This document shows positions 6,610-26,964 of a DNA stretch of 27,042 nt, piece after piece. The DNA is taken from IMG/VR virus record IMGVR_UViG_3300030102_002077, positions 6,644 to 33,685 of that record, one strand, 5' to 3'. The stretch is from a virus. The translations under genes were made by a program, and so were the position numbers. A model generated the notes under the pieces. It saw only the letters and a list, made by a program, of their open reading frames with translations. It was not told the origin of the DNA and made no database searches. The first letter of the stretch is position 1, and each line of letters starts with the position of its first letter.

Positions 6610-6915
6610 ATGGGATATATATCATTTTCAAAAGGTGGAGGTGAAGTAGATTTACTTCCAGCTGAAAATATCATACACGTTACTAGTAGTGGTACTACTG
6701 ATTGTAAAATCGTTTATGGCGTATTTGCTAAAGACGATATTCCTTTGGAAGCCACTGTTGTTATTTCTTCAGCAGAAGCAAGTACAACTTCAATTAGAAA
6801 CGCTGTAAATGCCGCTATTGAAAAAGCTAATGGTGCTTCGGGACCAGCTATTCCAGTAGCATTTGCTAATACTGTTACATCTGTAACTCCTACATTAGGA
6901 CCTACATTAACGTAA
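6610..6915 (+). CDS. Small conserved protein downstream of the capsid gene; possible capsid accessory or decoration protein
   Basis: 101 residues, 30 bases after the capsid gene and before a strong terminator, so probably made at similar levels. The N-terminal part (ISFSKGGGEVDLLPAENIIHV) and the alternating polar and apolar residues to about 55 suggest beta strands. Residues about 58-74 (STTSIRNAVNAAIEKANG) look like one amphipathic helix. The C-terminus is rich in Thr, Ala and Pro. Similar short proteins occur near capsid genes of marine phages, from memory, but I know no proven function. The location favours a capsid decoration or cementing role; this is inference. No signal peptide or membrane segment is seen. 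Confidence 0.7.
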   Translation: MGYISFSKGGGEVDLLPAENIIHVTSSGTTDCKIVYGVFAKDDIPLEATVVISSAEASTTSIRNAVNAAIEKANGASGPAIPVAFANTVTSVTPTLGPTLT

Positions 6916-10081: not shown

Positions 10082-13000
10082 ATGGCATTAGCGAAAAATA
10101 TATTTATCAAGTCTAAGATGAATAAAGACTTAGACGAAAGACTAATAGGTAAAGGTGAATACAGAGATGCTCAGAATATTAATGTAAGTAGATCTGAAGG
10201 TGATGATGTAGGCTCTGTTGAAAATGTACTAGGAAATGAATTAGTAACTGATCTAACTGCTACTACAATATATGATAATAGACAAGTTATAGGCCAATAT
10301 ATTGATCAAAGCAAAGAAAGAGGATTTTTTTATATAACTGATCATTACGATAGTTCAAGTACTAGACTAGATAATTTTGCAGGTAAAGGATCTACTCACT
10401 TAATAATAATGAGAGATTTTATAAATAATACCACTCATACATTAGTGTCAGGTAGGTTTTTAAATTTTTCTATTACTCACCCTATACTTAATATAGATTT
10501 AATTGAAGATTTATTATTTTGGACTGATGATAGAAATCAACCAAGAAGAATAAATGTAGATAAAGCTTTAGCTAGTTCTACTCATTACACTACAGAAGAT
10601 AATATATCTGTAGCTAAATATAATCCATACAATGCCATAAGTTTAGTTAATGAATTTACTGTTACTGTAACTGGAGGTACACTAACTGGACCTGGTCCTT
10701 TTACTTTAAGCAATGCAGATTACGCTAAAATAAGACAAGGACAGTTTGTAAAAATGCCTAATACAAACGTTCAATCTACACCTTGTATTATTCAAAGTAC
10801 GTCAAATTCAGCTAAAAGTTTTACATTAAATCAAGATTACGATCAAACAGATCCTTCAGCTACCACTATTACTATATTAGAAACAGGTTCAAAAAATGTT
10901 TCAGACAAATTTACAGAAGCAACAGTGTTTGGAAATGCTAGTGCACCCGCAGTTGTAAGCAGTCAGATAGAATTTACAGTTAACAATTTATCTGGAAACT
11001 TATACCCAAGTATGCGAGTGTTTAATAGTAGAACACAGTCTGTTATAACAATACTTTCATTACCTGGTTATACATTAGGAAATAATACTGCTACTGTTAG
11101 ATGTAATGTAGGTAGTGCAGCTTTAACCGAACTTGAAGAAGCTTTTCAACTAAAACCACCTTCTACTTCTTTTTATGGAGCTTTAGTTTACTTTGCAGAT
11201 TTTAACTCTCAATATTTATCTAACTTTTCAGGTGATACAGAATATTTAAGAGATAAGTTTGTTAGGTTTAGTTATAGATTTAAATTTGAAGATGGCGAAT
11301 ATTCTTTGATAGCTCCGTTTACTAGTCCTGCTTTTGTTCCAAAACAAAATGGTCATATTGTAGATATTAATCAACTATATGATGACAGCAATGTCATTAC
11401 CAGTCAAGAAAACGTTGAAAGAGGTTATGAAAATATAGCTAGAAGTACTGTTGTAGATTTTTTTGAAAACAGTGTTAATGTAGTTGACCTAAATATACAA
11501 ACTCCTTTTGCTGTAAATACTCTATACGATAATTTAAAAATAGAAGAAATAGACATACTTTATAAAGAGTCAGATACTTTAGTTGTAAGAATATTAGAAA
11601 CTATACCTAGAACTGATACTAGAATTACTTCTAATTCAACTAATACATTTACATATAACTATAACTCTAATGAACCAAAACTGCCAGTTAGAGAAGAACA
11701 AGTAGTTAGAGTATTTGATAGAGTACCTATTAGAGCTAAAACTCAATCTGTTACTGGTAATAGAGTTGTTTACGGTAATTTTTTAAATAAGCATACTCCA
11801 CCTGAAGCTTTGAGTTACAATGTAGAAATTAGTGCTAAATTAAATTCAAGAGAAGATGTTTCAGGTGTTCCTAAAAATACTGCTAATTTATTAGTTAAAC
11901 ATCCTACAGCTAGTGTAAAGCAAAATAGAACTTATCAAGTAGGTATAATACTAGCAGATCGATATGGAAGACAAACAGATGTAATTTTATCAGATGCAGA
12001 TGCAAACTCTTTTAGTTATGCTGGTGGTAGTTTTGGTGGTGATACAGTTTTTCATAAATATTTTTCAAAAGGGAGAGCGCAAGTTAATCGTATAAACAGA
12101 TGGTTTGGTGATTCAATTAAAGTTTTATTTAGATCTGTAATACCTAATAGTGTGTCTTATGCAGATGGTTATCCAGGTTTATATAAGACAGGTAGTTACA
12201 CTGCAACTGTAAACTCTTCACTTATTGGAAGTAGTTTTGGTATAACAAACTTTGGTGAAAACCCTGAAGTTGGAGACATTATTACTATAGGAGGTGTTGA
12301 TTATGCAATATCAGCTGTTTCTATATCTTATCCTACTTATCCTGCATCTCCAACAGCTAACATAACTTTAAGCCCAACGCCACCAAGTATAGGTTCTATT
12401 GGTACAGTTTATAATGTAGTTGGTAAAGCTAATCCGTTAGGCTTTTATAGTTATAAAGTTGTAATTAAACAACTAGAAGAAGAGTATTACAATGCTTATT
12501 TAGGTAATGTTATACAAGGAGGTTTTAAAGATCAAAAAGATAGTACAGGAACTTTGCAAGAACAAGGTTTATTTAGGACTTCATTATCTTACGCTAGTTT
12601 ATTTGGTAGTAATATAAATAAAGTACCAGCAGATTTATCTGAAACAGAACCTAACCAACAATTGTTTGCACCTAATACTACTAAGTTGTTTCCAAGAGTA
12701 CAATCTACTATGGCTATTGGCTCGGGTAATCCAGTAGTAACTAACAATATTTATGTATCTAATAATGCAGCTGATAAAAGTAATCCATTTGTAACAGGTG
12801 TTTTTTCTGCTAAACTAACAGATTTAAAAGCTGTAGATACTGTCGCATCAGTAACTGGTGTTGGTTTTGTAAACGCTCAGCAAGATCCTATAGGTTTTAA
12901 AATAAACACTAATGGAAAAGTTTTAGGTGTTCCAGTTGTAAATCCAGCTTACCCTACTAGTCCGTCGTTTATTAGCTCTGATTTTAGATTAAACGTAATG

Positions 13001-13153
13001 GAGGTAGATCCACCTAAATCTGATATACAAATATATTACGAAACTGCGTGCTCAGGATTAATAAGCGATTTAAATGTTCAAATAGAAACAGGAACAGGAG
13101 CTAGTGGTACAGCTCCAGATCCTCCACAAAGTGACGATGCAGTCGCTTCATAA
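10082..13153 (+). CDS. Large tail barrel / nozzle (muzzle-type) structural protein, N-terminal part
   Basis: 1,023 residues. The N-terminus KSKMNKDLDERL (10-21) and GEYRDAQN (25-32), with VGSVENVLGN at 43-52, is a pattern I recall from a large tail protein of crAss-like and many marine phages. It is thought to form the distal tail nozzle. Further marks are DLLFWTDDRNQPRRINVDKA, TQSVTGNRVVYGNFL and TYQVGIILADRYGRQ at about 617-631. The end contains DIQIYYETACSGLISDLN followed by a Gly, Thr and Pro-rich tail. Related proteins, as I remember them, continue in the same chain with the sequence found in the next gene, so this appears to be one half of a split protein. The TAA stop is followed 13 bases later by the next ATG in a different frame. 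Confidence 0.8.
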   Translation: MALAKNIFIKSKMNKDLDERLIGKGEYRDAQNINVSRSEGDDVGSVENVLGNELVTDLTATTIYDNRQVIGQYIDQSKERGFFYITDHYDSSSTRLDNFAGKGSTHLIIMRDFINNTTHTLVSGRFLNFSITHPILNIDLIEDLLFWTDDRNQPRRINVDKALASSTHYTTEDNISVAKYNPYNAISLVNEFTVTVTGGTLTGPGPFTLSNADYAKIRQGQFVKMPNTNVQSTPCIIQSTSNSAKSFTLNQDYDQTDPSATTITILETGSKNVSDKFTEATVFGNASAPAVVSSQIEFTVNNLSGNLYPSMRVFNSRTQSVITILSLPGYTLGNNTATVRCNVGSAALTELEEAFQLKPPSTSFYGALVYFADFNSQYLSNFSGDTEYLRDKFVRFSYRFKFEDGEYSLIAPFTSPAFVPKQNGHIVDINQLYDDSNVITSQENVERGYENIARSTVVDFFENSVNVVDLNIQTPFAVNTLYDNLKIEEIDILYKESDTLVVRILETIPRTDTRITSNSTNTFTYNYNSNEPKLPVREEQVVRVFDRVPIRAKTQSVTGNRVVYGNFLNKHTPPEALSYNVEISAKLNSREDVSGVPKNTANLLVKHPTASVKQNRTYQVGIILADRYGRQTDVILSDADANSFSYAGGSFGGDTVFHKYFSKGRAQVNRINRWFGDSIKVLFRSVIPNSVSYADGYPGLYKTGSYTATVNSSLIGSSFGITNFGENPEVGDIITIGGVDYAISAVSISYPTYPASPTANITLSPTPPSIGSIGTVYNVVGKANPLGFYSYKVVIKQLEEEYYNAYLGNVIQGGFKDQKDSTGTLQEQGLFRTSLSYASLFGSNINKVPADLSETEPNQQLFAPNTTKLFPRVQSTMAIGSGNPVVTNNIYVSNNAADKSNPFVTGVFSAKLTDLKAVDTVASVTGVGFVNAQQDPIGFKINTNGKVLGVPVVNPAYPTSPSFISSDFRLNVMEVDPPKSDIQIYYETACSGLISDLNVQIETGTGASGTAPDPPQSDDAVAS

Positions 13154-13166
13154 AATTTAAAAAATT

Positions 13167-14876
13167 ATGTCAGCAGTAATAGAAGTAGATTTTAATAACA
13201 CTTATTTAATTAAGCAGACTTATAGTCAATCATTGAATGGTAGGACAAACTCTAACCCTAATAGGCATAATGCGCTAGGCCCTGGAATATGTTGGCCTGG
13301 TGGTATTGATCTTACTATTGGATCGCCTGGTACAAATCAAGATAGAATAGAAGGATTTTATTCTAATTTTTACATAGAAGAGTCTAGAATAAGAGGTGAT
13401 TTTAATGCTGTTAGTATAGATAAAGGTGTTAGAGCTTTTTTAGATGATCCTTTTCCACTGCAACAACATAGATTTAATACATTAATTTATTCTGGCATAT
13501 ATAACTCTAGAACAGGTATTAACAATACAAATGTATTTTCTACTGGTACAGACATTACTAAGTCCTTAGACCCTGAGAATGGAACTATACAGCGCACTTT
13601 AGCTGAAGATACTAATATGATTGTGTTTCAAGAGAACAAAATTAGTAGAGCGTTAATAGACAAAGATACTATATACACTACAGAAAGCGGTACTCAAACT
13701 CAGGCGGGTACTGCGGTTATAGGTCAGTTTGTACCTTATAAAGGTGTTTATGGTATTAGTAAAAACCCAGAGTCTTTAGCTAATTATGGTTTTAGAAAAT
13801 ATTTTGCTGATAGAAACAGAAATGCTATATTAAGATTATCTAACGATGGTCTTACTGAAATTAGCGCTTATGGTATGGAAGATTATTTTAGAGATGAACT
13901 AGCTAAAGTAAAAGATACTAATACTACATATAGCATTCCAGCTACATCTACTTTTCAAGTAATTGATGGTGGTGCTGTTGGAAGCATGACTCTAACTATG
14001 GACCTTACTGGAGTAACGCCAATACCCTCAACAGGTATGACAATTCCAAATAACCCAGGTTATATAACTCAAGTCGATGCTTCTAATCCAGCTTCTGTAA
14101 AAGTATTTTATTCAGTGCCTTTTGTTACAGATCTTAGTGCTAAAGTTAAGTTTGAATATTTAGAAAATAGCAAAGTAAAAGGAGCTTGGGACGTACATAA
14201 TAGAAATTATATTGTGTCTTTACAAGAGACTCCGATATTAAGTTCTAAAACAGAAAATTTTCAAACATTAGCATTTGATGACAAAGTAAATGGGTGGGTA
14301 AGTTTTTACACTTACAAACCTGAAACAATGTTTTCTGTAAAAAATAATTACTTTACTACTCGAGAAGTAGGTTTATTTAAACATTATTCAGAAGTAGCTA
14401 ATACTAGAAACACATTTTATGGGACATCTAGTCCTTCTACAATAACTTGCGTGTTTAATGTACAGCCAAGTTTAGTAAAAAACTTTAAAACTGTGGGATA
14501 TGAAGGTAGTAGTGGTTGGGAAGTAGAGTCTTTTGTTTCTGACTTTACAGGAGCTAACCAATTGCCAGCTGGTACATATGTTGAAAATCAAGATCAAACT
14601 CTTTCTGTTAAGAGTTATGAAGAAGGAAAATATGTAGATCCTATTACGGGTCAAACTTTAAACGCTGGCTTTAATAGAAAAGAAAATATCTACGTAGCTA
14701 ATATAGTTTCTAACTCTATAGCTATGCCAAACGAAGTATCATTTGGTAATCAAATAACAGGTATAAGAGGCTTTGTAGCTACTGTTAAGTTAAAAACAGA
14801 TGACACTACACAATTAGGTGGAACTAAACAACTTTGGTCTACAAGATCAGAGTATGTTAATTCTACTGGATTTTAA
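13167..14876 (+). CDS. Large tail structural protein, C-terminal part (propeller-like), separate gene
   Basis: 569 residues. Sequence such as GFRKYFADRNRNAILRLS (about 208-225), DVHNRNYIVSLQET (about 342-355), GWVSFYTYKPETMFSVKN (about 376) and NTFYGT (about 415) looks like successive beta blades. It corresponds to the C-terminal half of the same large tail protein family as the preceding gene. In the homologues I recall these are usually one polypeptide. Here it has its own ATG and an A/T-rich leader, and a TAA three codons upstream in this frame excludes simple extension. Frames differ between the halves, so the split is not a single stop change. The two products probably assemble together in the tail nozzle. 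No fibre or depolymerase motif is seen. Confidence 0.75.
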   Translation: MSAVIEVDFNNTYLIKQTYSQSLNGRTNSNPNRHNALGPGICWPGGIDLTIGSPGTNQDRIEGFYSNFYIEESRIRGDFNAVSIDKGVRAFLDDPFPLQQHRFNTLIYSGIYNSRTGINNTNVFSTGTDITKSLDPENGTIQRTLAEDTNMIVFQENKISRALIDKDTIYTTESGTQTQAGTAVIGQFVPYKGVYGISKNPESLANYGFRKYFADRNRNAILRLSNDGLTEISAYGMEDYFRDELAKVKDTNTTYSIPATSTFQVIDGGAVGSMTLTMDLTGVTPIPSTGMTIPNNPGYITQVDASNPASVKVFYSVPFVTDLSAKVKFEYLENSKVKGAWDVHNRNYIVSLQETPILSSKTENFQTLAFDDKVNGWVSFYTYKPETMFSVKNNYFTTREVGLFKHYSEVANTRNTFYGTSSPSTITCVFNVQPSLVKNFKTVGYEGSSGWEVESFVSDFTGANQLPAGTYVENQDQTLSVKSYEEGKYVDPITGQTLNAGFNRKENIYVANIVSNSIAMPNEVSFGNQITGIRGFVATVKLKTDDTTQLGGTKQLWSTRSEYVNSTGF

Positions 14877-14885
14877 TTATATTAT

Positions 14886-15497
14886 ATGGATAAAGAAATA
14901 GAAGAAATAAAACAACAAGTTTTATTAGAGCCTTTAGAAAAAGCAGAGTCTAAAAAACAGTTTGTAGAATTAACTAAAAAGTTAGGACTAAAACATAGTT
15001 TTGATTTTGATGAAGCTTGGGAAATAGGTCAACAAATAAGAGCTAAAAAACAATTTAGAGAAAAAATTAAAGAACTAGAGGAAGTATTAAAAAATAATCC
15101 TGACTCTATAAAAGGCCAAGAAGTACAAGAAGCTAATCCGGTTAAACACTCTTTTGCTGAAAACATTTGTGTTAGAGAAATATATAATCCAGCTAATGAG
15201 TTTATTATAACAGCTATACATGCTCAGTCTCACCCTTTCTTTTTATTAAAAGGTAGTATGTCTATAATAACACATGAAGGCATAGAAACAATTGACGCAC
15301 CTCATTATGGTATAACAAAACCCGGAATAAAAAGAATAATATATACTCATACTCCTTGTAACTTTGTGACAGTACACGCTACTGAATTAAAAGACCCTGA
15401 CAAAATAGTAGAGTCTGTAACAGCAAAAACATTTGAAGATCCTAGAATAACAAAAGAAGATATGAAATTAATTAACAAATTAAAACTAACGATATGA
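14886..15497 (+). CDS. Cupin-fold protein with N-terminal helical region, tail operon
   Basis: 203 residues. Residues 1-85 are highly charged and helical (EEIKQQVLLEPLEKAESKK, REKIKELEEVLKN), likely a coiled coil. Residues about 94-170 fit a small beta-barrel of the cupin type: IHAQSHPFFLLKGSMSI, then GIETIDAPHYGITKPGIKR and NFVTVHATEL. H112, H116 and H164 could form a metal site, but the set is incomplete compared with a full cupin motif, so enzymatic activity is uncertain. Similar cupin-like genes are often found among tail and ejection genes of marine podoviruses (from memory), which suggests an assembly or structural role. The TGA stop overlaps the next gene's ATG by ATGA, so translation of the two is probably coupled. 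Confidence 0.72.
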   Translation: MDKEIEEIKQQVLLEPLEKAESKKQFVELTKKLGLKHSFDFDEAWEIGQQIRAKKQFREKIKELEEVLKNNPDSIKGQEVQEANPVKHSFAENICVREIYNPANEFIITAIHAQSHPFFLLKGSMSIITHEGIETIDAPHYGITKPGIKRIIYTHTPCNFVTVHATELKDPDKIVESVTAKTFEDPRITKEDMKLINKLKLTI

Positions 15498-16159
15498 GCA
15501 TGGTAACTGTTGCTATTATCGCGGGTGGTACTGCTCTTATTGCTGGCGGTATAGACTTTGGTATTAGCAAAAATAAAGAAAAAAAAGCTGCAGAAAAAGC
15601 TGCGCAAAAAGAAGCTGAATTAAAAGCATTTCAAGATAATAGACAAGAGATTATTGATAACTCAGATGATATTAGAGCATTAGCAGCTCAAGTAAATAAT
15701 CCATTTGCTAATTTAAGTGTAGCTACAGGTGCCGCAGAGTTTGAGGCTGAACAAGCAGATTTAGCTTTAGCTCAAGCGTTAGACACTATGGCTGCTACTG
15801 GAGCTAGTGCTGGTGGTGCTACTGCTTTAGCTAGAGCAGCATTAGCTAGTAAAAAAGGTATATCTAATAGTATACAACAACAAGAGGTTGCTAATCAAAA
15901 ACTAGCTGCTCAAGGAGCTCAACAAGCACAACAACAAAGACTTAACTTGCAACTTCAAGCTGAAGCTGAAGAAGCTGCTGCTTTTGATAGACAAGAAAGA
16001 AGAGATATGGTTGACATGGGTATTATAAGAGAAGATCAACAGTTCCAGCAAAACTTAGAATTACAATACGGATTAGCTGCTCAAGAAGCTTTAGTAGGAA
16101 CTGTAGAAAATGTAGGCAGCGCAGCTGGAGATGCGTATTTAGCCGGAGTAACACCTTAA
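15494..16159 (+). CDS. Internal virion (ejection) protein, T7 gp14-like
   Basis: 221 residues. Residues 3-21 form one glycine-zipper hydrophobic segment (VTVAIIAGGTALIAGGI), suited to membrane insertion. The core has NPFANLSVATGAAEFEAEQA, then ALDTMAATGASAGGATALA, and a long Gln and Ala-rich helical tail. This NPFA...ATGASAGG pattern is familiar from gp14-like internal virion proteins of podoviruses, which exit the head first and form a pore through the outer membrane. It starts within the stop of the cupin gene (ATGA), the only overlapping gene pair here. The ATG at 15494 is preferred over the one at 15500 because of that overlap. The two large genes that follow would supply the other ejected proteins. 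Confidence 0.8.
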   Translation: MSMVTVAIIAGGTALIAGGIDFGISKNKEKKAAEKAAQKEAELKAFQDNRQEIIDNSDDIRALAAQVNNPFANLSVATGAAEFEAEQADLALAQALDTMAATGASAGGATALARAALASKKGISNSIQQQEVANQKLAAQGAQQAQQQRLNLQLQAEAEEAAAFDRQERRDMVDMGIIREDQQFQQNLELQYGLAAQEALVGTVENVGSAAGDAYLAGVTP

Positions 16160-16169
16160 TAATTATAAT

Positions 16170-17882
16170 ATGGCGTATCAAATACCAAACATAGCAGGTC
16201 TAGCTTCGGCTAGAAATTCTAGAAGAGCTCAAGCTGTAAAAGATTTAGGAACTAAACTAGCGCTTAGACAAAAAGAAAAAAACAAAAGAGAAGCTCAAAT
16301 AGTTAAAGATGCTAATGCTCGTAATGTAGATTTTTTAAACTACTTTGAGCAACAGCCTAAATCTAGTAATCAAGCTTTTAACTCTGCAGCAGAAGAATAT
16401 GTAAGAAAAGCATCTATGAAACAAGAAGAAATGTATAGAAATGCTTTTGGTGCTGAAGGAAGTCCTCAAGCTAGAGCTGCGTATAATGCTCAAGTTATGA
16501 AAGATAAAAGAAATTTAAAATCTATAGGCGCTTGGATGACGTTAGGTAATGCCGCTAGCGTAGCTATAACAGAAAACCAGTCTGCAGCAGATCAAGATAC
16601 ATCGTTAGGTGCTTTTACTAGAGGTAATGATATAAATAAATTAGGTTTTCAAAGTGATTTAGCTAATTCAAAGTTTACTAATTTTTTACTAGAAGACGAT
16701 GCTAATGGTAATATAAATTTAAAGGGATTTTATAAAGATCAAGATTACCAAGGTTATTTATCTGGAGCTGAAAATGCAACCTTTAGTGAAAGAAACTTAA
16801 CTGGAGATGTGCAAGCACATGAAGCTGGTCAAGCTTGGTTTACTCAGATAAAACAAGAAGATTTATTGCAAAACAAATTAGGTAAAATATGGAACGATAC
16901 AAACCCAGCTATTGGTTTAAATAATTTATTTCAACCTGAAGTTAGATCTAAAAAATATTTATCAAATGGTAAGTGGGTTTATACTGAAGAAAAAGTATAT
17001 AATCCAGTTAAAATAAAAAATGATTTACTAACTACATACTCTAAAAGACTTGATACTCAAATAAATGGAGAAGGTTTTGATAAAACATGGGATCAACTAT
17101 ACAAAGGAGGTTATATAAGAAATGCTAAAGGAGAGTTTCTTGAAGAAGGAGACATTGCTTGGAACACAGTTAAACAGATTAAAAATATATCTGACGAAAT
17201 GTTTATGAAGCAATATGGTGATTTAACAGGTGATAATAAGATTACTCAAGAAGATAGAGATTTGTTTGTTGACAACATGAAAGACGCAGCTAGACAAGGA
17301 CTAGCTAATTACTTTTCTGAAACTATGAGTCCACAAAATAATCAAGTATTAAAAACTCAAACCACACAACAAAAGAAAAGTGAAGCAAATAAAAAAGGTG
17401 GTTATAGTCCTGAAGAGATAGCTGAATTTAGAATACACGAACAAGCTTATTTGGCAAATAAAGAAGCTTCTATAGCTGACGCTGAATTAACAAATGCTGC
17501 TAGTTTAAGATCCGCTATGGTAAAACAATTAAATGATAATTCTCATTTAGAACGTTTAGGTGGAGTTATTTTTGCTGACTATGAAACTGCTATGGGTATT
17601 TTTGAAAATACAGGACAATTAGATTATTATAGAAACGCAATGGATAAAGGATCTATATATGCTTTAAGCCCAACAGCAACAGTAACAGAAGGCACTAAAA
17701 AGCTACAATATGTAATAGATGCAGATAAAGAAATTAAAGCTTCTTCTATTGAAAATGCAGTTGGAAACCAAGAGCAAATACAATTGTTATTAAATAATGG
17801 TATTGACGTAGATGAATTATCAGTAGATTATTTTACACAGCTAGATAAAAGCAAAGAGAAAAAATCATTACCTACTAATTAA
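16170..17882 (+). CDS. Putative internal virion protein with an EF-hand/dockerin-like calcium loop
   Basis: 570 residues, mostly helical and hydrophilic. The N-terminal 60 residues are basic (RNSRRAQAVKDLGTKLALRQKEKNKR). Residues about 70-115 hold a helical pair (SAAEEYVRKASMKQEEMYRNAF). Residues 351-362 read DLTGDNKITQED, with Asp, Thr, Asp, Lys, Thr and Asp at loop positions 1, 3, 5, 7, 9 and 12, matching a calcium-binding EF-hand or dockerin loop; the flanking residues are helix-like. The family is not recognised. Position between the gp14-like protein and the giant ejection protein suggests a gp15-like partner in the head or ejection channel; this is inferred from order alone. The 3' neighbour starts 7 bases after the stop. 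Confidence 0.72.
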   Translation: MAYQIPNIAGLASARNSRRAQAVKDLGTKLALRQKEKNKREAQIVKDANARNVDFLNYFEQQPKSSNQAFNSAAEEYVRKASMKQEEMYRNAFGAEGSPQARAAYNAQVMKDKRNLKSIGAWMTLGNAASVAITENQSAADQDTSLGAFTRGNDINKLGFQSDLANSKFTNFLLEDDANGNINLKGFYKDQDYQGYLSGAENATFSERNLTGDVQAHEAGQAWFTQIKQEDLLQNKLGKIWNDTNPAIGLNNLFQPEVRSKKYLSNGKWVYTEEKVYNPVKIKNDLLTTYSKRLDTQINGEGFDKTWDQLYKGGYIRNAKGEFLEEGDIAWNTVKQIKNISDEMFMKQYGDLTGDNKITQEDRDLFVDNMKDAARQGLANYFSETMSPQNNQVLKTQTTQQKKSEANKKGGYSPEEIAEFRIHEQAYLANKEASIADAELTNAASLRSAMVKQLNDNSHLERLGGVIFADYETAMGIFENTGQLDYYRNAMDKGSIYALSPTATVTEGTKKLQYVIDADKEIKASSIENAVGNQEQIQLLLNNGIDVDELSVDYFTQLDKSKEKKSLPTN

Positions 17883-17889
17883 ATAAAGT

Positions 17890-20800
17890 ATGAGTAAATA
17901 CATTTGGGATAACTCAGAATATTCTTTAGACGAAATTACTGAAGCAGCTGGCACTGCTAATTTAGGAATAGATGAATACATTTCTAAATATAACATTGAA
18001 GTCGTAGATGAAGAAGAAGATAAAACTGAGGAAATAATAACTGATCCACCTAAAGCTAAAGCAGTTGAAAAAGCTGAAGTAGTAGAAGAGATTAAAACAC
18101 CTTCATTTGTGCCACATCCTGATGGTGATGCTTATTATGAAAAGCTACCTATGATGGATAGAGAAAAGGTAGCTTATATGGATTGGAAAGCTAAAAATAA
18201 ACCTGAAGAAATTAAACCCGCTTTTAAAGGTGCTCCACTTGTAGACGTTAGCGAAGGTATAGCTACTAAAATAAATATTAATGGTAAAATAGAAGAGTTT
18301 GAAGATGAGGTTACTGATGACTTTGAATATACAAGTTCTAATCCTGATGTATACAAACTAATAACTACTGCTGAAGAAAAAGAAGCTAAAGGTGAAGGTG
18401 AAGATGATAGTAAGTTTCAAACTATTTCTATAAGTGAAGATGTTAATTTTTTAGAAAAATATTATCCTGGTAGATTTTATAGTGGTCCACTAGTAATGGA
18501 CGGGGGAGATCCTAAATTATACGATAGAGAACAAAAAGATATATTTGGTAAAGATAAATCAATAGACGCTTCTGAATTTATAAAACCTATAAAAGATGAG
18601 TTACTTAAACGTGAAGCGGCAAAACTTCGTAATAAGTTAAAAGGTGATGAAAGCAGCTATGTCGAAACAAATATAGCAGCATTAGATAATTATGGACAAG
18701 ATGACATAAATGGAACTAATTTAAAAGAGTGGTATAAAACTGGTACATTAACTAAAGATGCTTATGATCAAGTAGAAAATAAGAAAAAATCATTTGATAA
18801 AGGTGTTTTCAAATCATCTGAAAAAGAACTATTTGAAAAATATAAAACAACAGGTGAGTTTGATACAGAGTCTTTTTTAAGATTAAAAGCTAACGCAGGT
18901 GATTATGCTTATGATGCTCAAGGTAATTTAATAGGTGTTAGTGTAACCGAAGGTGAACCTATCGCGCCTATGAAAGAGGGTGATTTAGGTTTTGAACAAG
19001 GAGATATAGATTTAATAAATCAAAAAACACAAGAGTATCAACAAAAAGCAGCAACAGTAGATGTATTAATAGAAGCTAGAAACAATGCTTATTTTGAATT
19101 ACTAGCTACTGACAAGCAAATAGCTGATGCTGTAAAGCAGGGTAAAGGACCTGAAGCGCAAGGCGTTGTTGAAAATATATTAAACTTTTTAAGTGGTGAT
19201 GCGCTTGTTGGTGATCAGGTTCAAGCGGCAGCTAGAGCTGCTGAAGAAGGAAGTTATGTAGGTAAAAACATACTTAAAATTGCATCTAAAGATCCTTTAG
19301 CACAACAGCATAATAATAAACTTATAGAAGTATTAGCACTAGATAGAGCTATTAAACTTAACTCTAATTTAATGACTATTGAAGAAGAGGGTAATATTAG
19401 TAAGTTTACTAGAGAGTTTCAAGAAGTAATGACAGGAACTTCAGCTGCTCCGTATGGTGAACTTGGCAATATAAAAAGCGCTCCATCAGTTGCTGCTAGC
19501 TATTATTCTGATGTAATGAGTGAAGCTGGACTACAAGTAGATAAAGACATCGTAGAAAAAGATATTAATAACTCAGGTATAGACGAACTAATAGTAACAG
19601 GTGGTGCTAATATAGCACCTTTACTTATGGCTATAAGAGGAGCTAAAGGTGTAAATGTTAAGTTTAATAATAAAGTTTATGGAGTTAAACCAGCTTTAAA
19701 AGCAATAGATAAAGTATTTACAGGTTTTACAAAAGGAAAAGGTACTTCTACAACAAAAGTAATGAATTTAGTTAAAGGAATAACTAAAGAAGTTGTTACA
19801 ATAGGAGCTGCAAACGAGTTTCAAGAAACTGTTTTTAATACTCAAAAGCTTCCATTAACCGATGCTGTTATATTCGGAGCTGGTAATAGTTTTGTAGCTG
19901 GAGCTTCTAAATATGTAGCTACTAAATATATACCTTATTTTTCAGAGTTTGCTAGAACAAGGATGGGCGTAGCTGTTAACGGCGCTGGTAAGCTAGTAGC
20001 AGGTGGTGTTTCAGCTACTGCTATTGGTAAAAGTGCAGAACTTATTAATGCTTCTGCTAATTATTGGTCTACTGGAGACGAAGAAGCTTTTGATCAAGCT
20101 ATGGAGCATTTAACTAGTATAGATCAATTAACAGCTGATGTAGTATTATTTACTGCTTTAGGTATGCGTGGTGAAGCAGTAACAGAGGTTAAAAATAGAA
20201 TATTAGCTATAGATGGTAGATCACCATTAACTGTTAACGCTTCTAAAACTTTAGGTGTTAAAGAATTTAGTTCACCTAAAGAAGTTGCTGAAGCTTTAGA
20301 TACTAAGATGAAAGAACTTGGTGTAGATAAAATGAACTCTGCACAAATGAATAGTCCAGAAGTTAAATCTCAAATAGAAAAATTAAAGCTAGCTGCGGAA
20401 ACTTTAAATACTCAAGTAAATGTAAGAGATGCTAAACAAGCTATAGAACAACAAACTAACAATGCTAAAACTACAGAAGCTAAACTAGATATTATAGCTA
20501 AAAAACTAGCAACTGGACAAGAGTTAACTGTAGCAGAAGTTAAAGAGATAGGTAAGTTTTCTGATACGCCTATTGTAGATGGATCTCAAGGTTTTAATTT
20601 TAGGTCACCTGTAGAAGCTATGAACGTAGTTATGGCTAACAAACTAGGTATAACTAGAGGATCAGAAAAATTCAATATATTACAAGGAGAATTAGCTAAA
20701 TATGGAGAGTTTGTAAATGTATCTAACCAACAATTTAAAGGTGAATCAAAACAGACTCAAGCTAAAAAAGAATTATATATAGGTAAAATATTAGATGCTA

Positions 20801-23800
20801 GAAAAATACAGCAAGAAACTAATTCACTTACTGAACTCATAGAATCAAATCCAGAGTTATCTATAGTACATAAACCTGTTATAGCAGAGAATAACAAAAG
20901 GTTAAAAGAAGTTCAACAAGAAATGGTTGACTTAGTAGTAGAAAATAGAGAAGTAGAAAAAACAGATTATGAGTCTGATATAAAGTTTGCTAGTGAAACA
21001 GCTAAAGATTTAGGTATAAGATTTGAAGAACTGACTGCATCTAAGTTTAATGAACTAGCAAATACTAAAGGGTTTAATAATACTTCTGACGGTGTATACT
21101 TACCTGAAGAAAATGCTATATATATTAATAGAGACGTAGCTTTACAAAATGGAGCTATAAGTGTAGGTTCTCATGAATTAGCTCATGCATTATTAAGAAG
21201 ATCTTTTAAAAATAACAAAGGTATATTTACAGCAGAAGGTATAGATGCTATAAACGACTTTGTTAACAACACAATGAGCAATGAACAGCGTGCTAAAGTT
21301 CAGCAAAGAATAAATCAAAAATACGATCCTAATAGTAAAGACTTTCAACAAAAACAATACGAAGAATATTTAAATATATTTTTAGACGGTGTAAAGCGAG
21401 GCGAATATAAATTAAATGATACATTTAGTTCTAAGCTTAAATCTATTGTAGAGGGCAACCGAGGTGTTGATTTAACAACCGGTAAGGGCATTAAAAACTT
21501 TGTAGATCTATTAGCTAGGTCTGGAAGAAACGGTGTCTTAGATGTAAGATTAAAAGATTTTTATAAAGAAGGTGAAGCAACTGGAGAAACTATAGAAGGT
21601 GAAGCTAAACTTTCAGGATCTGAAAAAAGATTGTCTGAAACTGTAGATGAGTTGATAGGTATAGAGCGTAATGAGTTAGGTGATATAACGCTAACTAAAG
21701 AACAATGGGATGCTGGGTATAATAAATTAGGCACTGATCTTGTTGAGCAAGGAACATTTGACGGTTTAATTGTAGAGGGAACAGGTAAAGACAAGTTAAA
21801 AATAGGTAGTGGTGATATTGTTATTGAAGGCAAAGGTTTTAGTAGAGATCAATATATAAAAGATGTAAGAGATAAGCTTAAAGATGTTGTGATGAGGTGG
21901 AACCCCGAGTCTATTAAAGGTGAAAAAGGTGGGCTTGTAGGTTGGATAACTAATCCACTTAACTTAAATAAAAAGAAGTTAGACGTTTTTGAAGATTATA
22001 AAAAAATAGCTAGAGCAGAGAAAGCAGCAAGAGGTGAAGTAATAGAAGGTGCAGGTGTTAAAGGAACTGAAATAGAAATACCAGCAGAACCTTTCCAAGC
22101 TGGAAGAACTAATCCATTAGATCTACTACCTAGTGAACTTAGAGCTGAAGCTATAGAAGAAGTAAGAAGTAAACTGCCAAAAACAGTAGAAGGTTTAAGA
22201 GAATTTTTAAAAGGACAAAATTATAAAACTTTAAAAGGTTTAGCTACTGAAACTACATCTAAGTTTTTTGGTATACCTGCAAAGAAAATAAGAGATCCTA
22301 AAGCAAATTTAGCTGGTAGAGAACCTCAACAAGCTCAAATGAAAATAGCTCAATTAAAAGGGAAGTTTATAGATATTATACCTAAAAACAATATAGACAT
22401 ATATAAAGAGTTTGAAACAATAGATGGCAAAAGAACTGGTAAGTTTAAGTACATAAGTTTAGGTGATGTAGGTACTGGCAAAGCTACAGGATTACCTGCT
22501 AATATAAGAAAAAAATTATATACTAGTTTAGGCAGACCTAAAGGTGTTAACAATGAAGTGTTTGAGCTAAAAAGAGATTTAACAGAGGCTGATATACTTA
22601 GAATATTCGGAATAGAAGGTGGTAGAAAAGCTGAAGATTTTGCTTTAAGAACACCTGATGCACAGACTATTAAAGGTGGTGTTGAACTATTTGATAGAGG
22701 TTTGGGTAATAAAATAGTTAGAGATATAGCTATAGATCTTGGACTTGCTAACGAAGCATTAAACTTAGCACAAGGTAAAAATGTTTATATGGCTAGTCTC
22801 ACTGAGATGAGAGACAAGCCTAACTTTGTTGAAAGAGATTTTACATTAAATCATGTTGGGCCTATAGCTGAAAGATTTGCTAACTTACCTTACGGTATTA
22901 AAACAGAAGAAGCAGTAAAGCAATTACTTAATGAAGAGTTTAAAACAGGACCTCGTAAGTATAAAACTTTTACTGATCCTAACACTGGTGAGTCATATAC
23001 TTTTACTGCTCAAGATATTAACGGCTTAGCAAAGTCTTTTATTACAGCTATAAATAGAGCTAAAGAAGTTCCTTTTTTAAACGAGGCTAACGTAAAAAAT
23101 AGAAGCGAAGTAAACAAAAGAGATATAAAGAAGTTTATTGAAGACGTGGTAATGTCTGAAGGATCTGAAAGAGCTACTCAAAAGTTCTTTGGAGATTTAC
23201 TACCTAAAAACAATAAAGGTAAAACAATATCGCTAAAAGAATTAGCTGACATCGAAGCTAATCAAGTTAAACGTAGACAGCTTGCTACAGAGATGTGGAA
23301 AACACAAGTTAAAGAAGCTGAAAACACTGTTGACTGGATAAACGATAACTTTGGTTTGAGCGAACAGTTTAACTCTGCTTCTAAAATTGGTGATGGTAGG
23401 TTTCAATACTATAAAGGTATAGCAGATTTTACGCCTCAATTTAATGAAGCAATAAAAGAATCAGGATATAAAGTTGTAAACGAAGGTAGAAAATATTTTA
23501 TAGAAACGCTTGATGGTAAAAGAGTAAAAGAGATAGATAGATTTGGTAAGACACAAAGTAATTCTGAGTATGCTATAAAACAATTAGAAAAAGCATTTGA
23601 TAAAGATGGTATAATAGATGTTAATTCACCTGATGTAAAAGAAGTAGTAGATGTATATCAAGAAGTAGCTAATAGATCTAGAAAAATATTAGATAAGCAG
23701 TTTGAATTTATGATGAATAAATATAAAACTGGTGAAGCTAGCGCTACTGATATGGCTTTATTTACTATGGAACTTAAATCTGGTATGGGTACTGTGCTAC

Positions 23801-26800
23801 GTATGGCAGCTCCACTTAGAGAAATGTATGAGCCCTTACCTGGTGAAAAACTTATTAAGCAGCAATCAAGAATTAAAACAGATGCTGAAGGTAAACCAGT
23901 ATTAAATGCAAAAGGTAAACCAGTAAGGGAGAAGCTATTGATATGGGAACATAGTAAACCAGCTGAGTCAATGATTTTTGAAATGTTAGATATTTATTTA
24001 AAAGATGCTAACATAAAAGAAGTTAAACTAGAAAATGATATAATCAGGTACGAGTTAAATGAAACTGGTAAAAAAGCACTAGAAGAAGCTTACAATGGTT
24101 ACGAAGTAGCTATTATACCTAAAGCAATGGACAATGTAATTACTGCTATAGGTAGAGCTGAAGGAGTTGAAGTTGGTAAAGATAGATATTATGATGAGCT
24201 AACTTATGGTAGACCTGAAATGAGAGCTGTTAGAAATTTAGTTACTGGTGAACTAAAAGGTTACGAGTGGGCTATAGCAGCAGAGTATGCTAGAGATACT
24301 AAGTTGGCTAAAATAAATGATGAGCAAGGTGTACCTGCTTTTGCTTCTAAGTCACAGCAAAGAAACAACTTTGACTATTTAAAAGAAGCTAAAAATCAAG
24401 ACAATGCTCTTGATCAAGCTCGTATACCAAATAAAAAACCTAAAAAAATTAGAGTATTTGATTTTGATGATACATTAGCGCGTAGTAATAACATTGTTAT
24501 AGCTACTAAAGATGGTAAAACAATTAGGTTAAATGCGGAAGATTTTGCTAAACGTGGATTACAGTTGAAAGAAGAAGGTTGGAATTTAGATTTTAGTGAT
24601 TTTAATAGAGTAACTGACGGATCAAGAGGACCTTTATTTGAGGTAGCTAAAACAATAAAAGAAGCTAGAGGTAATGAAGATCTTTTTGTGTTGACAGCTA
24701 GAGCACCTGAATCGAGAGATGCTATATATGATTTTCTAAAAGCAGAAGGATTAGAGTTTAAACGTGATAACATTGTAGGTTTAGGTAACTCAACTGGTGA
24801 AGCTAAAGCTCAATGGTTGGTAAGTAAAGCGGCAGAAGGTTATAATGATTTTTATTTTGCTGACGACGCAGTACAAAATGTTAAAGCAGTTAAAGACGCA
24901 TTGAGTGTTTTAGATATTAAATCAAAAGTACAAAGAGCATTAGCTAGTGAAAGTGAAAACAGAAGCATAGAGTTTAATAAAATATTAGAAGCTAAAACAG
25001 GTATTGAATATTATAAAGAGTATTCAGCTGCTAAAGCTAAAACAGTTGGAGCTAACAAAGGTAAGTTTAAATTTTTTATACCTTATTCTGCAGAAGATTT
25101 TGTAGGTTTACTTTACCCTACACTTAGTAAGGGAAGATTAGGTGATAAACAAATGGCTTGGTATAAAGAAAATTTATTAAATCCTTATGCTAGAGCAATG
25201 GATAACTTAACTAAAGACAGAGTACAGTTAATGGCGGATTTTAAAGCTTTAAAGAAAGAACTAGATGTACCTGCTGATTTACGTAAAACAAATTCAAGTG
25301 GTTTTACAAATGAACAAGCTGTAAGAGTTTATTTATTTGAAAAGTCAGGATTTGACATGACCGCTAATGGATTATCTAAAAGAGACTTAGCAGAATTAAC
25401 AGATATAGTTAATAAAGATCCTAAATTAAAAGCATTTGCTGAACAATTAATGACTATAACTAAAGGTGAAAACTACGCAGAGCCAGGTGAAAACTGGTTA
25501 GTTGGTACTATAACGACTGATCTTATAAGCATAATTAATACAACTAAACGTAAAAAGTATTTAGAAGAGTGGCAAAGAAATGTAGACGAAATATTTACTA
25601 CAGAAAACTTAAATAAACTAGAAGCTATATATGGAAGTAGATATAGAGAGTCTATGGAAAACATTTTAAGTAGAATGAAAGCAGGTAAAAACAGACTGTT
25701 TAGCGGAAGTAGATTAGGAAATAAAGTGTTAGATTACATTAACGGTTCTAACGCTGCTATCATGTTCTTTAATACTAGATCAGCTATACTTCAAACTATA
25801 TCTTCAGCTAACTACCTTAACTGGAGTTTTAATAATCCTGCTAAAGCTGGTATAGCTTTTGCTAATCAACCTCAGTATTGGAAAGATTTTACTAAGTTAA
25901 TGAACTCTGATTATTTAAGAGACAGGCGTAATGGTTTAAGAATTAACATAGCTGAAAGTGAAGTAGCAGATGCTGCAGCAACTAGTAAAAATAAAGCTAA
26001 AGCAGTTATAAACTATATACTTCAAAAAGGTTATTTACCAACTCAATATGCTGATAGTTTTGCTATTGCTTCTGGAGGTGCTACTTTTTATCGTAATAGA
26101 ATAAATGATTTAGTTAAAAGAGAAGGTATGACTGAAGCTCAAGCGGAAAATCAAGCTTTAAGAGAGTGGAGAGAACTAGCTGAAGAGTCTCAACAGTCAA
26201 GTAGACCGGATAAAATATCACAGCAACAAGCTAGTGATGCTGGTCGTTTAATACTTATGTTTGCTAATACACCAATGCAGTATGCTAGATTACAAAAAAG
26301 AGCTATACAAGATCTTGCTAATGGACGTGGAGATGCTAAAACAAATGTTAGTAAAATAGCTTATTACGGAGTCGTACAAAACTTAATATTTAATGCTATG
26401 CAACAAGCAATGTTTAAGTTAGGTTTTGATGATGATGATGAAGAAAAAGTAAAGACCTACTCGCGAGTAGCTAATAGTATGGTAGATAATACATTAAAAG
26501 GATTAGGCATAAGTGGAGCTGCTGTTTCTGTAGGTAAAAACTTTTTAATGGATATTTACGAAAGATCAAATAGAAAAAGACCTGAATATGTAGACGCAGC
26601 TTGGAAGTTAACACAGTTCTCACCACCTATTAGTTCTAAAATATCTCGTATTAAATCTGCAGCTTATCCTTTTGATAATAAAAAGATGAGAAAAGAAATA
26701 TATGACAAAGGCTTTAGTATAAATAATCCAGCTTTAATGTCTGGTGCTAAAGTTATATCAGCAACAACTAACATACCTTTAGATAGAGTATTACAGAAAT

Positions 26801-26964
26801 TTAATAATATACAAGGAGCAATGTCTGAAGAAGCTGAATGGTGGCAAACGTTAGCTATGTTAGGTGGTTGGCCATCATGGTCTATAATGCCTAAGAAAAA
26901 ATCAACTAGCAAAAAACCTACTTCTACTAAAAAGAAAAGAGAATTTGCTAATCCATTTGAATAA
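17890..26964 (+). CDS. Giant polyvalent virion protein: zincin-like, HAD-like and LPD-type C-terminal regions
   Basis: 3,024 residues in one open frame. From the N-terminus: an opening of the YIWDNSEYSLDEITEAAG type and an acidic linker (about 38-60). Then long helical, Glu/Lys-rich stretches, and apolar glycine-rich segments about 570-590 and 656-760 (VIFGAGNSFVAGASKYVA; GKLVAGGVSATAIGK) that could enter a membrane. A zincin-type HELAH lies at 1095-1099, with E1158 or E1159 as possible third ligand. A poorly recognised middle region covers about 1200-2170. A HAD-like domain about 2187-2365 has DFDDT (2191-2195), VLTAR (2267-2271) and FADD (2323-2326). The C-terminal region from about 2395 contains ANTPMQ (2792-2797) and a lysine-rich tail. 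HAD and C-terminal blocks recur in marine phage giant proteins, from memory. Probably packaged and ejected like T7 gp16, but no lysozyme or RNA polymerase motif is seen. Confidence 0.88.
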   Translation: MSKYIWDNSEYSLDEITEAAGTANLGIDEYISKYNIEVVDEEEDKTEEIITDPPKAKAVEKAEVVEEIKTPSFVPHPDGDAYYEKLPMMDREKVAYMDWKAKNKPEEIKPAFKGAPLVDVSEGIATKININGKIEEFEDEVTDDFEYTSSNPDVYKLITTAEEKEAKGEGEDDSKFQTISISEDVNFLEKYYPGRFYSGPLVMDGGDPKLYDREQKDIFGKDKSIDASEFIKPIKDELLKREAAKLRNKLKGDESSYVETNIAALDNYGQDDINGTNLKEWYKTGTLTKDAYDQVENKKKSFDKGVFKSSEKELFEKYKTTGEFDTESFLRLKANAGDYAYDAQGNLIGVSVTEGEPIAPMKEGDLGFEQGDIDLINQKTQEYQQKAATVDVLIEARNNAYFELLATDKQIADAVKQGKGPEAQGVVENILNFLSGDALVGDQVQAAARAAEEGSYVGKNILKIASKDPLAQQHNNKLIEVLALDRAIKLNSNLMTIEEEGNISKFTREFQEVMTGTSAAPYGELGNIKSAPSVAASYYSDVMSEAGLQVDKDIVEKDINNSGIDELIVTGGANIAPLLMAIRGAKGVNVKFNNKVYGVKPALKAIDKVFTGFTKGKGTSTTKVMNLVKGITKEVVTIGAANEFQETVFNTQKLPLTDAVIFGAGNSFVAGASKYVATKYIPYFSEFARTRMGVAVNGAGKLVAGGVSATAIGKSAELINASANYWSTGDEEAFDQAMEHLTSIDQLTADVVLFTALGMRGEAVTEVKNRILAIDGRSPLTVNASKTLGVKEFSSPKEVAEALDTKMKELGVDKMNSAQMNSPEVKSQIEKLKLAAETLNTQVNVRDAKQAIEQQTNNAKTTEAKLDIIAKKLATGQELTVAEVKEIGKFSDTPIVDGSQGFNFRSPVEAMNVVMANKLGITRGSEKFNILQGELAKYGEFVNVSNQQFKGESKQTQAKKELYIGKILDARKIQQETNSLTELIESNPELSIVHKPVIAENNKRLKEVQQEMVDLVVENREVEKTDYESDIKFASETAKDLGIRFEELTASKFNELANTKGFNNTSDGVYLPEENAIYINRDVALQNGAISVGSHELAHALLRRSFKNNKGIFTAEGIDAINDFVNNTMSNEQRAKVQQRINQKYDPNSKDFQQKQYEEYLNIFLDGVKRGEYKLNDTFSSKLKSIVEGNRGVDLTTGKGIKNFVDLLARSGRNGVLDVRLKDFYKEGEATGETIEGEAKLSGSEKRLSETVDELIGIERNELGDITLTKEQWDAGYNKLGTDLVEQGTFDGLIVEGTGKDKLKIGSGDIVIEGKGFSRDQYIKDVRDKLKDVVMRWNPESIKGEKGGLVGWITNPLNLNKKKLDVFEDYKKIARAEKAARGEVIEGAGVKGTEIEIPAEPFQAGRTNPLDLLPSELRAEAIEEVRSKLPKTVEGLREFLKGQNYKTLKGLATETTSKFFGIPAKKIRDPKANLAGREPQQAQMKIAQLKGKFIDIIPKNNIDIYKEFETIDGKRTGKFKYISLGDVGTGKATGLPANIRKKLYTSLGRPKGVNNEVFELKRDLTEADILRIFGIEGGRKAEDFALRTPDAQTIKGGVELFDRGLGNKIVRDIAIDLGLANEALNLAQGKNVYMASLTEMRDKPNFVERDFTLNHVGPIAERFANLPYGIKTEEAVKQLLNEEFKTGPRKYKTFTDPNTGESYTFTAQDINGLAKSFITAINRAKEVPFLNEANVKNRSEVNKRDIKKFIEDVVMSEGSERATQKFFGDLLPKNNKGKTISLKELADIEANQVKRRQLATEMWKTQVKEAENTVDWINDNFGLSEQFNSASKIGDGRFQYYKGIADFTPQFNEAIKESGYKVVNEGRKYFIETLDGKRVKEIDRFGKTQSNSEYAIKQLEKAFDKDGIIDVNSPDVKEVVDVYQEVANRSRKILDKQFEFMMNKYKTGEASATDMALFTMELKSGMGTVLRMAAPLREMYEPLPGEKLIKQQSRIKTDAEGKPVLNAKGKPVREKLLIWEHSKPAESMIFEMLDIYLKDANIKEVKLENDIIRYELNETGKKALEEAYNGYEVAIIPKAMDNVITAIGRAEGVEVGKDRYYDELTYGRPEMRAVRNLVTGELKGYEWAIAAEYARDTKLAKINDEQGVPAFASKSQQRNNFDYLKEAKNQDNALDQARIPNKKPKKIRVFDFDDTLARSNNIVIATKDGKTIRLNAEDFAKRGLQLKEEGWNLDFSDFNRVTDGSRGPLFEVAKTIKEARGNEDLFVLTARAPESRDAIYDFLKAEGLEFKRDNIVGLGNSTGEAKAQWLVSKAAEGYNDFYFADDAVQNVKAVKDALSVLDIKSKVQRALASESENRSIEFNKILEAKTGIEYYKEYSAAKAKTVGANKGKFKFFIPYSAEDFVGLLYPTLSKGRLGDKQMAWYKENLLNPYARAMDNLTKDRVQLMADFKALKKELDVPADLRKTNSSGFTNEQAVRVYLFEKSGFDMTANGLSKRDLAELTDIVNKDPKLKAFAEQLMTITKGENYAEPGENWLVGTITTDLISIINTTKRKKYLEEWQRNVDEIFTTENLNKLEAIYGSRYRESMENILSRMKAGKNRLFSGSRLGNKVLDYINGSNAAIMFFNTRSAILQTISSANYLNWSFNNPAKAGIAFANQPQYWKDFTKLMNSDYLRDRRNGLRINIAESEVADAAATSKNKAKAVINYILQKGYLPTQYADSFAIASGGATFYRNRINDLVKREGMTEAQAENQALREWRELAEESQQSSRPDKISQQQASDAGRLILMFANTPMQYARLQKRAIQDLANGRGDAKTNVSKIAYYGVVQNLIFNAMQQAMFKLGFDDDDEEKVKTYSRVANSMVDNTLKGLGISGAAVSVGKNFLMDIYERSNRKRPEYVDAAWKLTQFSPPISSKISRIKSAAYPFDNKKMRKEIYDKGFSINNPALMSGAKVISATTNIPLDRVLQKFNNIQGAMSEEAEWWQTLAMLGGWPSWSIMPKKKSTSKKPTSTKKKREFANPFE

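Follow-up and report, generated by a model that had tools for sequence, protein, structure and literature searches.

Most of what is known of giant ejected proteins comes from the phages N4 and T7. The T7 gp14-gp15-gp16 operon follows a size rule of small (~180–240 aa), medium (430–980 aa) and large, and gp16-like proteins measure 609–1,337 aa (PMC8954989). Coliphage N4 encodes gp52-gp51-gp50 (150, 644 and 3,500 aa); in gp50, the virion RNA polymerase (vRNAP), a very large helical C-terminus comes after an HExxH domain (PMC12633501). The polyvalent proteins of phages and conjugative elements, catalogued by Iyer et al., 2017 (PMC5512222), are also very large chains encoded beside late virion genes, and they combine several unrelated catalytic domains.

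Here we describe a giant ORF of 3,024 aa (17890–26964, +) in a viral window, by which we mean the whole stretch of 27,042 nucleotides that was analysed (positions 6644–33685 of one fragmentary 33.7-kb virus record, IMGVR_UViG_3300030102_002077). The giant shares the gene order and approximate sizes of N4 gp52-gp51-gp50; it ends a small/medium/large operon in which, as in the T7 ejectosome, the small protein has a hydrophobic N-terminus; and, like the polyvalent proteins, it is a very large chain beside late virion genes with unrelated predicted catalytic domains (a zincin and a Pnkp-type HAD). We consider it probable that, of three ejection proteins in a short-tailed marine Bacteroidota phage, the giant is the last and largest (gp16/gp50 position), polyvalent in type and enzyme-carrying.

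Results

The giant closes a virion block

The ORF begins with ATG and runs through 3,024 codons without an internal stop, the single uninterrupted frame of more than 9 kb that the initial annotation had reported, and it closes the TerL-portal-MCP-tail block. The predicted virion genes (terminase, portal, capsid, head/tail, tail-fibre-like, 221-aa and 570-aa) all lie upstream of it on the same (+) strand. The portal protein (1445–3859, +; PHROG 6547, E 1.5e-144), our reference for divergence, shares 50% identity with its Manatee Spring phage counterpart, 42% with those of Flavobacterium elemo phages and 34% with those of Cellulophaga phi38:1/phi40:1. The major capsid protein (5065–6579, +) is homologous to phi40:1 gp093 and Calle_1 gene 9, and a tail-fibre/adhesin-like gene (14886–15497, +) matches PHROG 12032 (E 2.4e-26). 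By homology, the gene order of the block follows phi40:1 gp092–gp097, and the phi38:1, elemo and Manatee Spring phages are colinear with it as well. Electron microscopy shows Calle_1, which is closely related to phi38:1/phi40:1, to be a podovirus (PMC8776804). Within the block (10082–14876), two genes of 1,023 and 569 aa match one large virion protein in relatives (phi40:1 gp097; elemo gp22; Manatee 16998–21653), and the gene thus appears split.

Two genes separate the tail-fibre-like gene from the giant. The first (15494–16159, +) encodes a gp14-like protein of 221 aa with an N-terminal hydrophobic segment; its family comprises 83 members, located upstream of giants, and phi40:1 gp099, which was detected by MS/MS, matches it at E 8e-8. 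The second (16170–17882, +) encodes a hypervariable protein of 570 aa with 10 detectable family members; it has no sequence match to phi40:1 gp100 or N4 gp51 and is their counterpart by position alone. The order 221, 570 and 3,024 aa fits the T7 operon rule, and portal-MCP-...-221-570-3024 parallels N4 portal...gp52-gp51-gp50, so that the giant, as the last virion-block gene after gp14-like and gp15-like genes, does stand in the ejection position that had been assigned to it. Unlike T7 gp16, the giant far exceeds 609–1,337 aa, and we do not class it as gp16, since no peptidoglycan hydrolase (lysozyme/transglycosylase) was matched in the window protein or in 42 N-termini. The PF00940 profile of T7-type RNA polymerase found no match in the giant or in the control, and hhalign scored the giant C-terminus against N4 C2 no better than shuffled sequence. 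By analogy, the giant may work like N4 gp50 and T7 gp16 while having no sequence kinship to N4 gp50.

A search of IMG/VR with a C-terminal alignment turned up relatives encoded in at least 594 stretches, of which 80 loci were kept; two scans together gave 78 non-redundant complete giants of 1,564–3,697 aa, the window's included, so that the intact full-length homologues for which a search had been proposed are numerous. A scan for closer relatives of the zincin and middle region returned loci already known and one distant match. No PDB chain matched the giant by sequence, and UniProt entries of the family bear either no functional name or a doubtful one (‘UDP-N-acetylglucosamine kinase’). The Manatee Spring giant (L014, MW202828.1, 741–12320; 3,859 aa) contains HExxH twice and bears the misleading annotation ‘reticulocyte binding/rhoptry protein’, and Maribacter phage Panino (L018, PP540027.1, 13229–18718) has a 1,829-aa gene in the giant position annotated ‘tRNA methyltransferase’. 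The fold readings that follow are based on two structure predictions.

Two predicted enzymes precede a helical C-terminus

The first recognised enzyme is a zincin-type metallopeptidase domain of lethal-factor-like predicted fold (~residues 1040–1215; 21007–21534, +). Its zinc-binding motif, HELAH (HExxH; residues 1095–1099; 21172–21186, +), is invariant in an alignment of 31 sequences covering the zincin and middle regions (mean identity 16%), in which no column other than H1095, E1096, H1099 and E1159 is invariant. E1159 (21364–21366, +), the putative third zinc ligand, is kept in 97% of 69 relatives and played no part in choosing the sequences in which conservation was scored. With a chance expectation of 0.004 per 3,000 aa at the protein's His/Glu content, HExxH occurs exactly once in 75 of the 78 full-length giants (three relatives have none) and lies 812–1,399 residues upstream of the HAD motif in 69 giants. 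Profile matches were to PHROG 4415 (peptidase; E 0.004) and PHROG 87 (E 0.008). The best PDB neighbours of the model are lethal factor peptidase structures, with 4dv8 first at a modest Z of 6.5; 4dv8 was also used by Iyer et al. to unify the polyvalent MPTases, a domain of their inventory (PMC5512222). With HExxH and a downstream Glu ligand, the domain is a predicted metallopeptidase.

The second is a HAD phosphatase domain (residues 2182–2341; 24433–24912, +) resembling the T4 Pnkp 3'-phosphatase in sequence (PHROG 415, polynucleotide kinase; E 2.2e-6) and in modelled fold (best PDB entry 5uj0, Z 11.2, 2.5 Å over 120 residues; next entry 10.1). Motifs I (D2191xD2193xT2195), II (T2269/R2271), III (K2306) and IV (D2325 D2326) are invariant in 47/47 sequences, and the HAD motif is present in all but one of the 78 full-length giants. 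The domain is closest to Pnkp by both profile and fold, and we predict a 3'-phosphatase. The initial annotation had recognised a zincin motif and HAD motifs, and had named degenerate enzyme sites as evidence against its reading: both sets of motifs are there, conserved across relatives and, for HAD, complete, and this invariance, together with the conservation of HExxH and E1159, means that the sites are not degenerate.

In four of the 78 giants (L006, L057, L086 and L096) a P-loop domain of ~200 aa is nested within the HAD domain, 35–38 residues after motif I. Alignment A1 shows the L006 insertion, and one A1 member matches the Zeta_toxin/AAA_33 and PHROG 505 (polynucleotide kinase) profiles. 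It is possible, judging from sequence, that kinase and phosphatase here form a one-chain polynucleotide kinase-phosphatase. The HAD 3'-phosphatase fold and motifs, and in these four relatives the P-loop kinase too, are as in T4 Pnkp, whereas the placing of the HAD within a giant virion-type protein, and of the kinase after motif I instead of at the N-terminus, is not. We found no RNA ligase partner in 13 relatives; an ATP-dependent DNA ligase is encoded in nine of the 13, all of at least 61.8 kb. The L006 genome also has a further PHROG 415 domain outside the giant (G005:C1:56344-56793, E 6.4e-23), with one TAA within the match.

The chain ends in a C-terminal domain (~residues 2345–3002; 24922–26895, +) that is all-helical in the AlphaFold2 model (mean pLDDT 78) and conserved in sequence among relatives, as had been anticipated. 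In 190 pairs of 20 genomes, median identity is 60% for the HAD and helical parts together and 64% for the portal; because it evolves at a portal-like rate, the C-terminus fits the shared packaging/ejection machinery, which suggests that it contacts conserved virion/ejectosome parts. In a Foldseek comparison with BFVD, its fold bears a moderate resemblance to annotated polyvalent proteins of the ART-PolyVal, MuF, LPD and nuclease kinds (E 1e-4 to 6e-10; TMq ~0.3–0.5). The likeness to polyvalent proteins that the initial annotation had drawn is seen in the zincin, nearest lethal factor, and more tentatively in this C-terminal fold. Unlike the members of the polyvalent catalogue, the giant has no catalogued LPD domain detectable by sequence (Pfam searches) and shares a ~600-residue virion-core region with phi40:1 gp101, and the main text of that catalogue makes no mention of a Pnkp-type HAD domain (PMC5512222). 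LPD38 was rejected as a name for the C-terminal domain, having no match in any family member; against the Panino giant it scored E 1.8e-5 for one genome, below the curated cut-off, and it was absent at E 0.1 in a whole-Pfam scan. When the HAD/helical module was compared with the N4 gp50, elemo, Manatee, phi38:1, phi19:3 and Panino proteins, none scored clearly above shuffled controls.

These features bear on whether the giant could be a purely structural component of the ejectosome, its zincin serving self-maturation and its HAD a virion-internal or scaffold role, with no host action. Phage P1 DdrB, which contains a zincin, is cleaved before packaging according to the polyvalent catalogue (PMC5512222), and a single zincin per protein, strict catalytic conservation and a C-terminal part evolving at the rate of virion genes all suit such a role. 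Assembly alone would hardly account for a conserved predicted nucleic-acid end phosphatase, joined in four relatives by a nested kinase, and the N4 vRNAP, with an HExxH domain before its helical C-terminus, is described as packaged uncleaved (PMC5512222, PMC12633501). We regard the structural role as unlikely and favour an enzyme-carrying ejection protein.

The N-terminal two thirds change rapidly

In the same 190 pairs, the N-terminal, zincin and middle parts have median identities of 24–25%, equal to shuffled controls (25%). The protein is thus divided between a conserved block of HAD and helical C-terminus (60–65% identity, like the portal) and ~2,160 N-terminal residues at shuffled background. 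The division also holds against the nearest relative (G006/L007), in which most virion genes are 89–98% identical to the window's (portal, 95%) and the N-terminal, zincin and middle parts are at background. DNA similarity to this relative ends at 17558 and resumes where the HAD domain starts, at 24441 (residue 2184), and the 570-aa protein loses similarity from about residue 400. Identity in the C-terminal part, at 67%, is no higher than usual between lineages, so that replacement has probably taken in the giant gene as a whole and the end of the neighbouring 570-aa gene. The tail-fibre-like gene (14886–15497) is 30% identical in G006, against 92–94% for both flanking genes, and is probably a second exchanged gene, with a role in receptor binding.

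Region M (residues 1216–2164; 21535–24381, +) is the fast-evolving stretch between the zincin and HAD domains, and all 69 middle regions join into one BLAST-linked component. The initial annotation had found no nameable domain in residues 1200–2170. This holds for Pfam, in which no family matched, and for solved structures, among which no PDB fold was found in a search with the whole 1,191-residue model (a query that leaves room for a known fold); yet the region contains a near-invariant pair, E2020-H2021, in an EHxxPA context (23947–23952, +), kept in 99% of the 69 sequences and a candidate active site. The other columns above 70% are R1971, R2099 and G2120 (74–80%), and the pair and both arginines fall in the last 330 residues of the region. 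The model shows mixed strands and helices, with pLDDT of 85–95 over much of residues 1785–2090. From conservation and model, the last part of region M is probably an unnamed catalytic domain. Reading the EHxxP motif as an HNH nuclease agrees poorly with the predicted strand/helix order and was unsupported by any search; a likeness to sigma-70 region 2 (motif FDP...YI), seen in 2 of 31 members with a best E of 0.004, is not claimed here.

Could the hypervariable two thirds be loosely constrained linkers and coiled coils in fast drift, and not exchanged effectors? Mean alignment identity is 10–16% outside active-site residues, and few domains are recognised by Pfam or PHROGs, as drift would predict. 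Against it stand the confident mixed alpha/beta parts modelled in region M, the 99% retention of E2020-H2021, and the close pair L001/L002, in which all parts are under purifying selection (dN/dS 0.04–0.13). Within-gene breaks are also sharp (dS of 0.11 in the C-terminal part vs. 1.0 in the N-terminal part of L080/L081; 0.12 in the zincin vs. 0.47 in the N-terminal part of L070/L071) and indicate recombination, not drift. We judge loose drift improbable and prefer to read these parts as exchanged modules.

The N-terminal core links the giant to a virion protein

The giant opens with a variable acidic leader (residues 1–370; 17890–18999, +), whose first ~45 residues hold the motif MYxYxGxxYTxDQixxAAxxxNMxxDEYlxk (17890–18024). 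The motif is found in 36 giant ORFs and at no other ORF start in the fetched loci, and the regions after it cannot be aligned between giants that have it in common; it is possibly a targeting or packaging signal. Of the glycine-rich apolar segments noted initially, the apolar character stands, residues 371–900 being the most apolar, but the stretch is Ala-rich (Ala 12%, Gly 8%). No segment of the window protein reaches transmembrane-like hydropathy (19-residue mean ≥1.6); such a segment occurs, in the N-terminal part, in 16% of relatives.

Residues 376–881 form an N-terminal core (19015–20532, +) with transitive homology to phi38:1/phi40:1 gp101. A profile built from family N-termini alone, and thus non-circular (outsiders left out), matched phi38:1 gp101 (E 1.7e-39), elemo gp18 (E 2.3e-37) and phi19:3 gp129 (E 2.3e-20), with no shuffled or reversed sequence among the matches listed. 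The phi38:1 protein is 99.9% identical to phi40:1 gp101, and the three genes that close the phi40:1 block, gp099, gp100 and gp101, are annotated ‘experimental MS/MS proteomics analysis’. The window's own core is a divergent member: it matches L099 weakly (E 6e-6), and a two-sequence profile matches L052 (E 5.5e-7; best decoy 0.06). It reaches gp101 solely via L099 and L052, neither of which is left outside the component that holds gp101. Both gp101 and elemo gp18 have the family's N-core, and elemo gp18 has the zincin too (hhalign, E 6.6e-5). The HAD and helical C-terminal module, by contrast, was detected in the window family and not in the phi40:1/phi38:1, elemo or Manatee giants. Since phi40:1 gp101 has neither a zincin nor a HAD domain, nor any HExxH, its detection by MS/MS shows that the N-core type is packaged, but not that the enzymes are. 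With gp101 and gp099 both MS/MS-detected and homologous to parts of the window operon, presence of the giant in the virion, whose absence had been named as grounds for refutation, is likely.

The same comparison speaks to whether the giant is not ejected at all, being a late tail or lysis protein, or a cytoplasmic infection protein, that merely ends the virion block. The window protein is tied to the MS-detected protein through intermediates (L099 and L052), which leaves such a reading some room. Against this, gp099, gp100 and gp101 were detected in the same places, sequence homologues of two of them are encoded in the window, and the Gundel_1 and elemo relatives (by fold or position) are annotated as structural; we consider a non-ejected protein very improbable. 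Gene order and domain content speak against reading the giant as a virion RNA polymerase, a tape measure or a receptor-binding protein, and we reject these.

Discussion

We propose that the giant is packaged in the virion with the gp14-like 221-aa and gp15-like 570-aa proteins, a step strongly supported by homology, and we infer that the full-length chain is packaged with its enzymes. On infection all three proteins would exit via the tail, the 221-aa protein going to the outer membrane and the 570-aa protein helping to build a periplasmic tunnel, through which the giant would thread as a chain of domains once the two smaller proteins had been ejected. The giant's ancient N-terminal core would be the portion in common with the MS-detected gp101, and its helical C-terminus the portion fitting the shared packaging/ejection machinery. 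Inside the cell, the zincin could cleave either the giant itself, freeing parts, or host proteins, and the Pnkp-type HAD could strip phosphates from nucleic-acid ends, alone or with the nested kinase (in four of the 78 relatives); phosphatase, with or without kinase, would then, upon entry, repair the ends of broken DNA or RNA. In the N-terminal two thirds, fast divergence appears to combine with recombination inside the gene, as would be expected of parts facing varying hosts or defences. The initial annotation had envisaged a bundle of enzymes delivered with the DNA. Position, likely virion presence and intact sites support part of that reading, in which ejection, activity and targets are predicted, and the bundle consists of two recognised sites (zincin and HAD) and a candidate third (E2020-H2021).

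More tentatively, and as the less likely case, we put forward that this widespread marine lineage may ship a pre-made end-healing enzyme for nucleic acids in the virion, a phosphatase to which a kinase is sometimes added; it would sit on a conserved ejection module, behind rapidly exchanged N-terminal modules with at least one enzyme of a new kind (E2020-H2021) among them. If the end-healing reading were true, host nuclease damage to DNA or tRNA could be undone before any phage gene is expressed; an active Pnkp-type domain would be a virion-delivered repair enzyme that counters nucleases at the first step of infection. Relative to the portions of the literature compared, the Pnkp-type phosphatase, the nested kinase, the E-H domain and the quantified split between conserved and hypervariable parts are new; in N4 gp50, unlike the window giant, no HAD domain stands between the HExxH domain and the helical part. 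In a lineage with hundreds of environmental members, HAD and helical C-terminus stay constant while the remainder turns over, so that one can test which part is required for packaging and for passage, and which ones encounter the host. The cultured colinear relatives (Cellulophaga phi38:1/phi40:1 and Flavobacterium elemo) make the virion block and N-core accessible in the laboratory, the HAD/C-terminal module not having been detected in them.

The host of the window phage is likely a member of the Bacteroidota, since the C-terminal module is also present in Bacteroidota metagenome bins (Flavobacteriaceae, Cryomorphaceae, Crocinitomicaceae and Saprospiraceae). The module occurs as well in GTDB bins assigned to Woesearchaeota, Aliivibrio, Ilumatobacteraceae and Alphaproteobacteria (L102–L104, L107, L109 and L115), which are likely mis-binned phage contigs. 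Lastly, at the start of the record (L016, 147–983), upstream of the virion block, lies a tandem trio of genes for small, very basic proteins.
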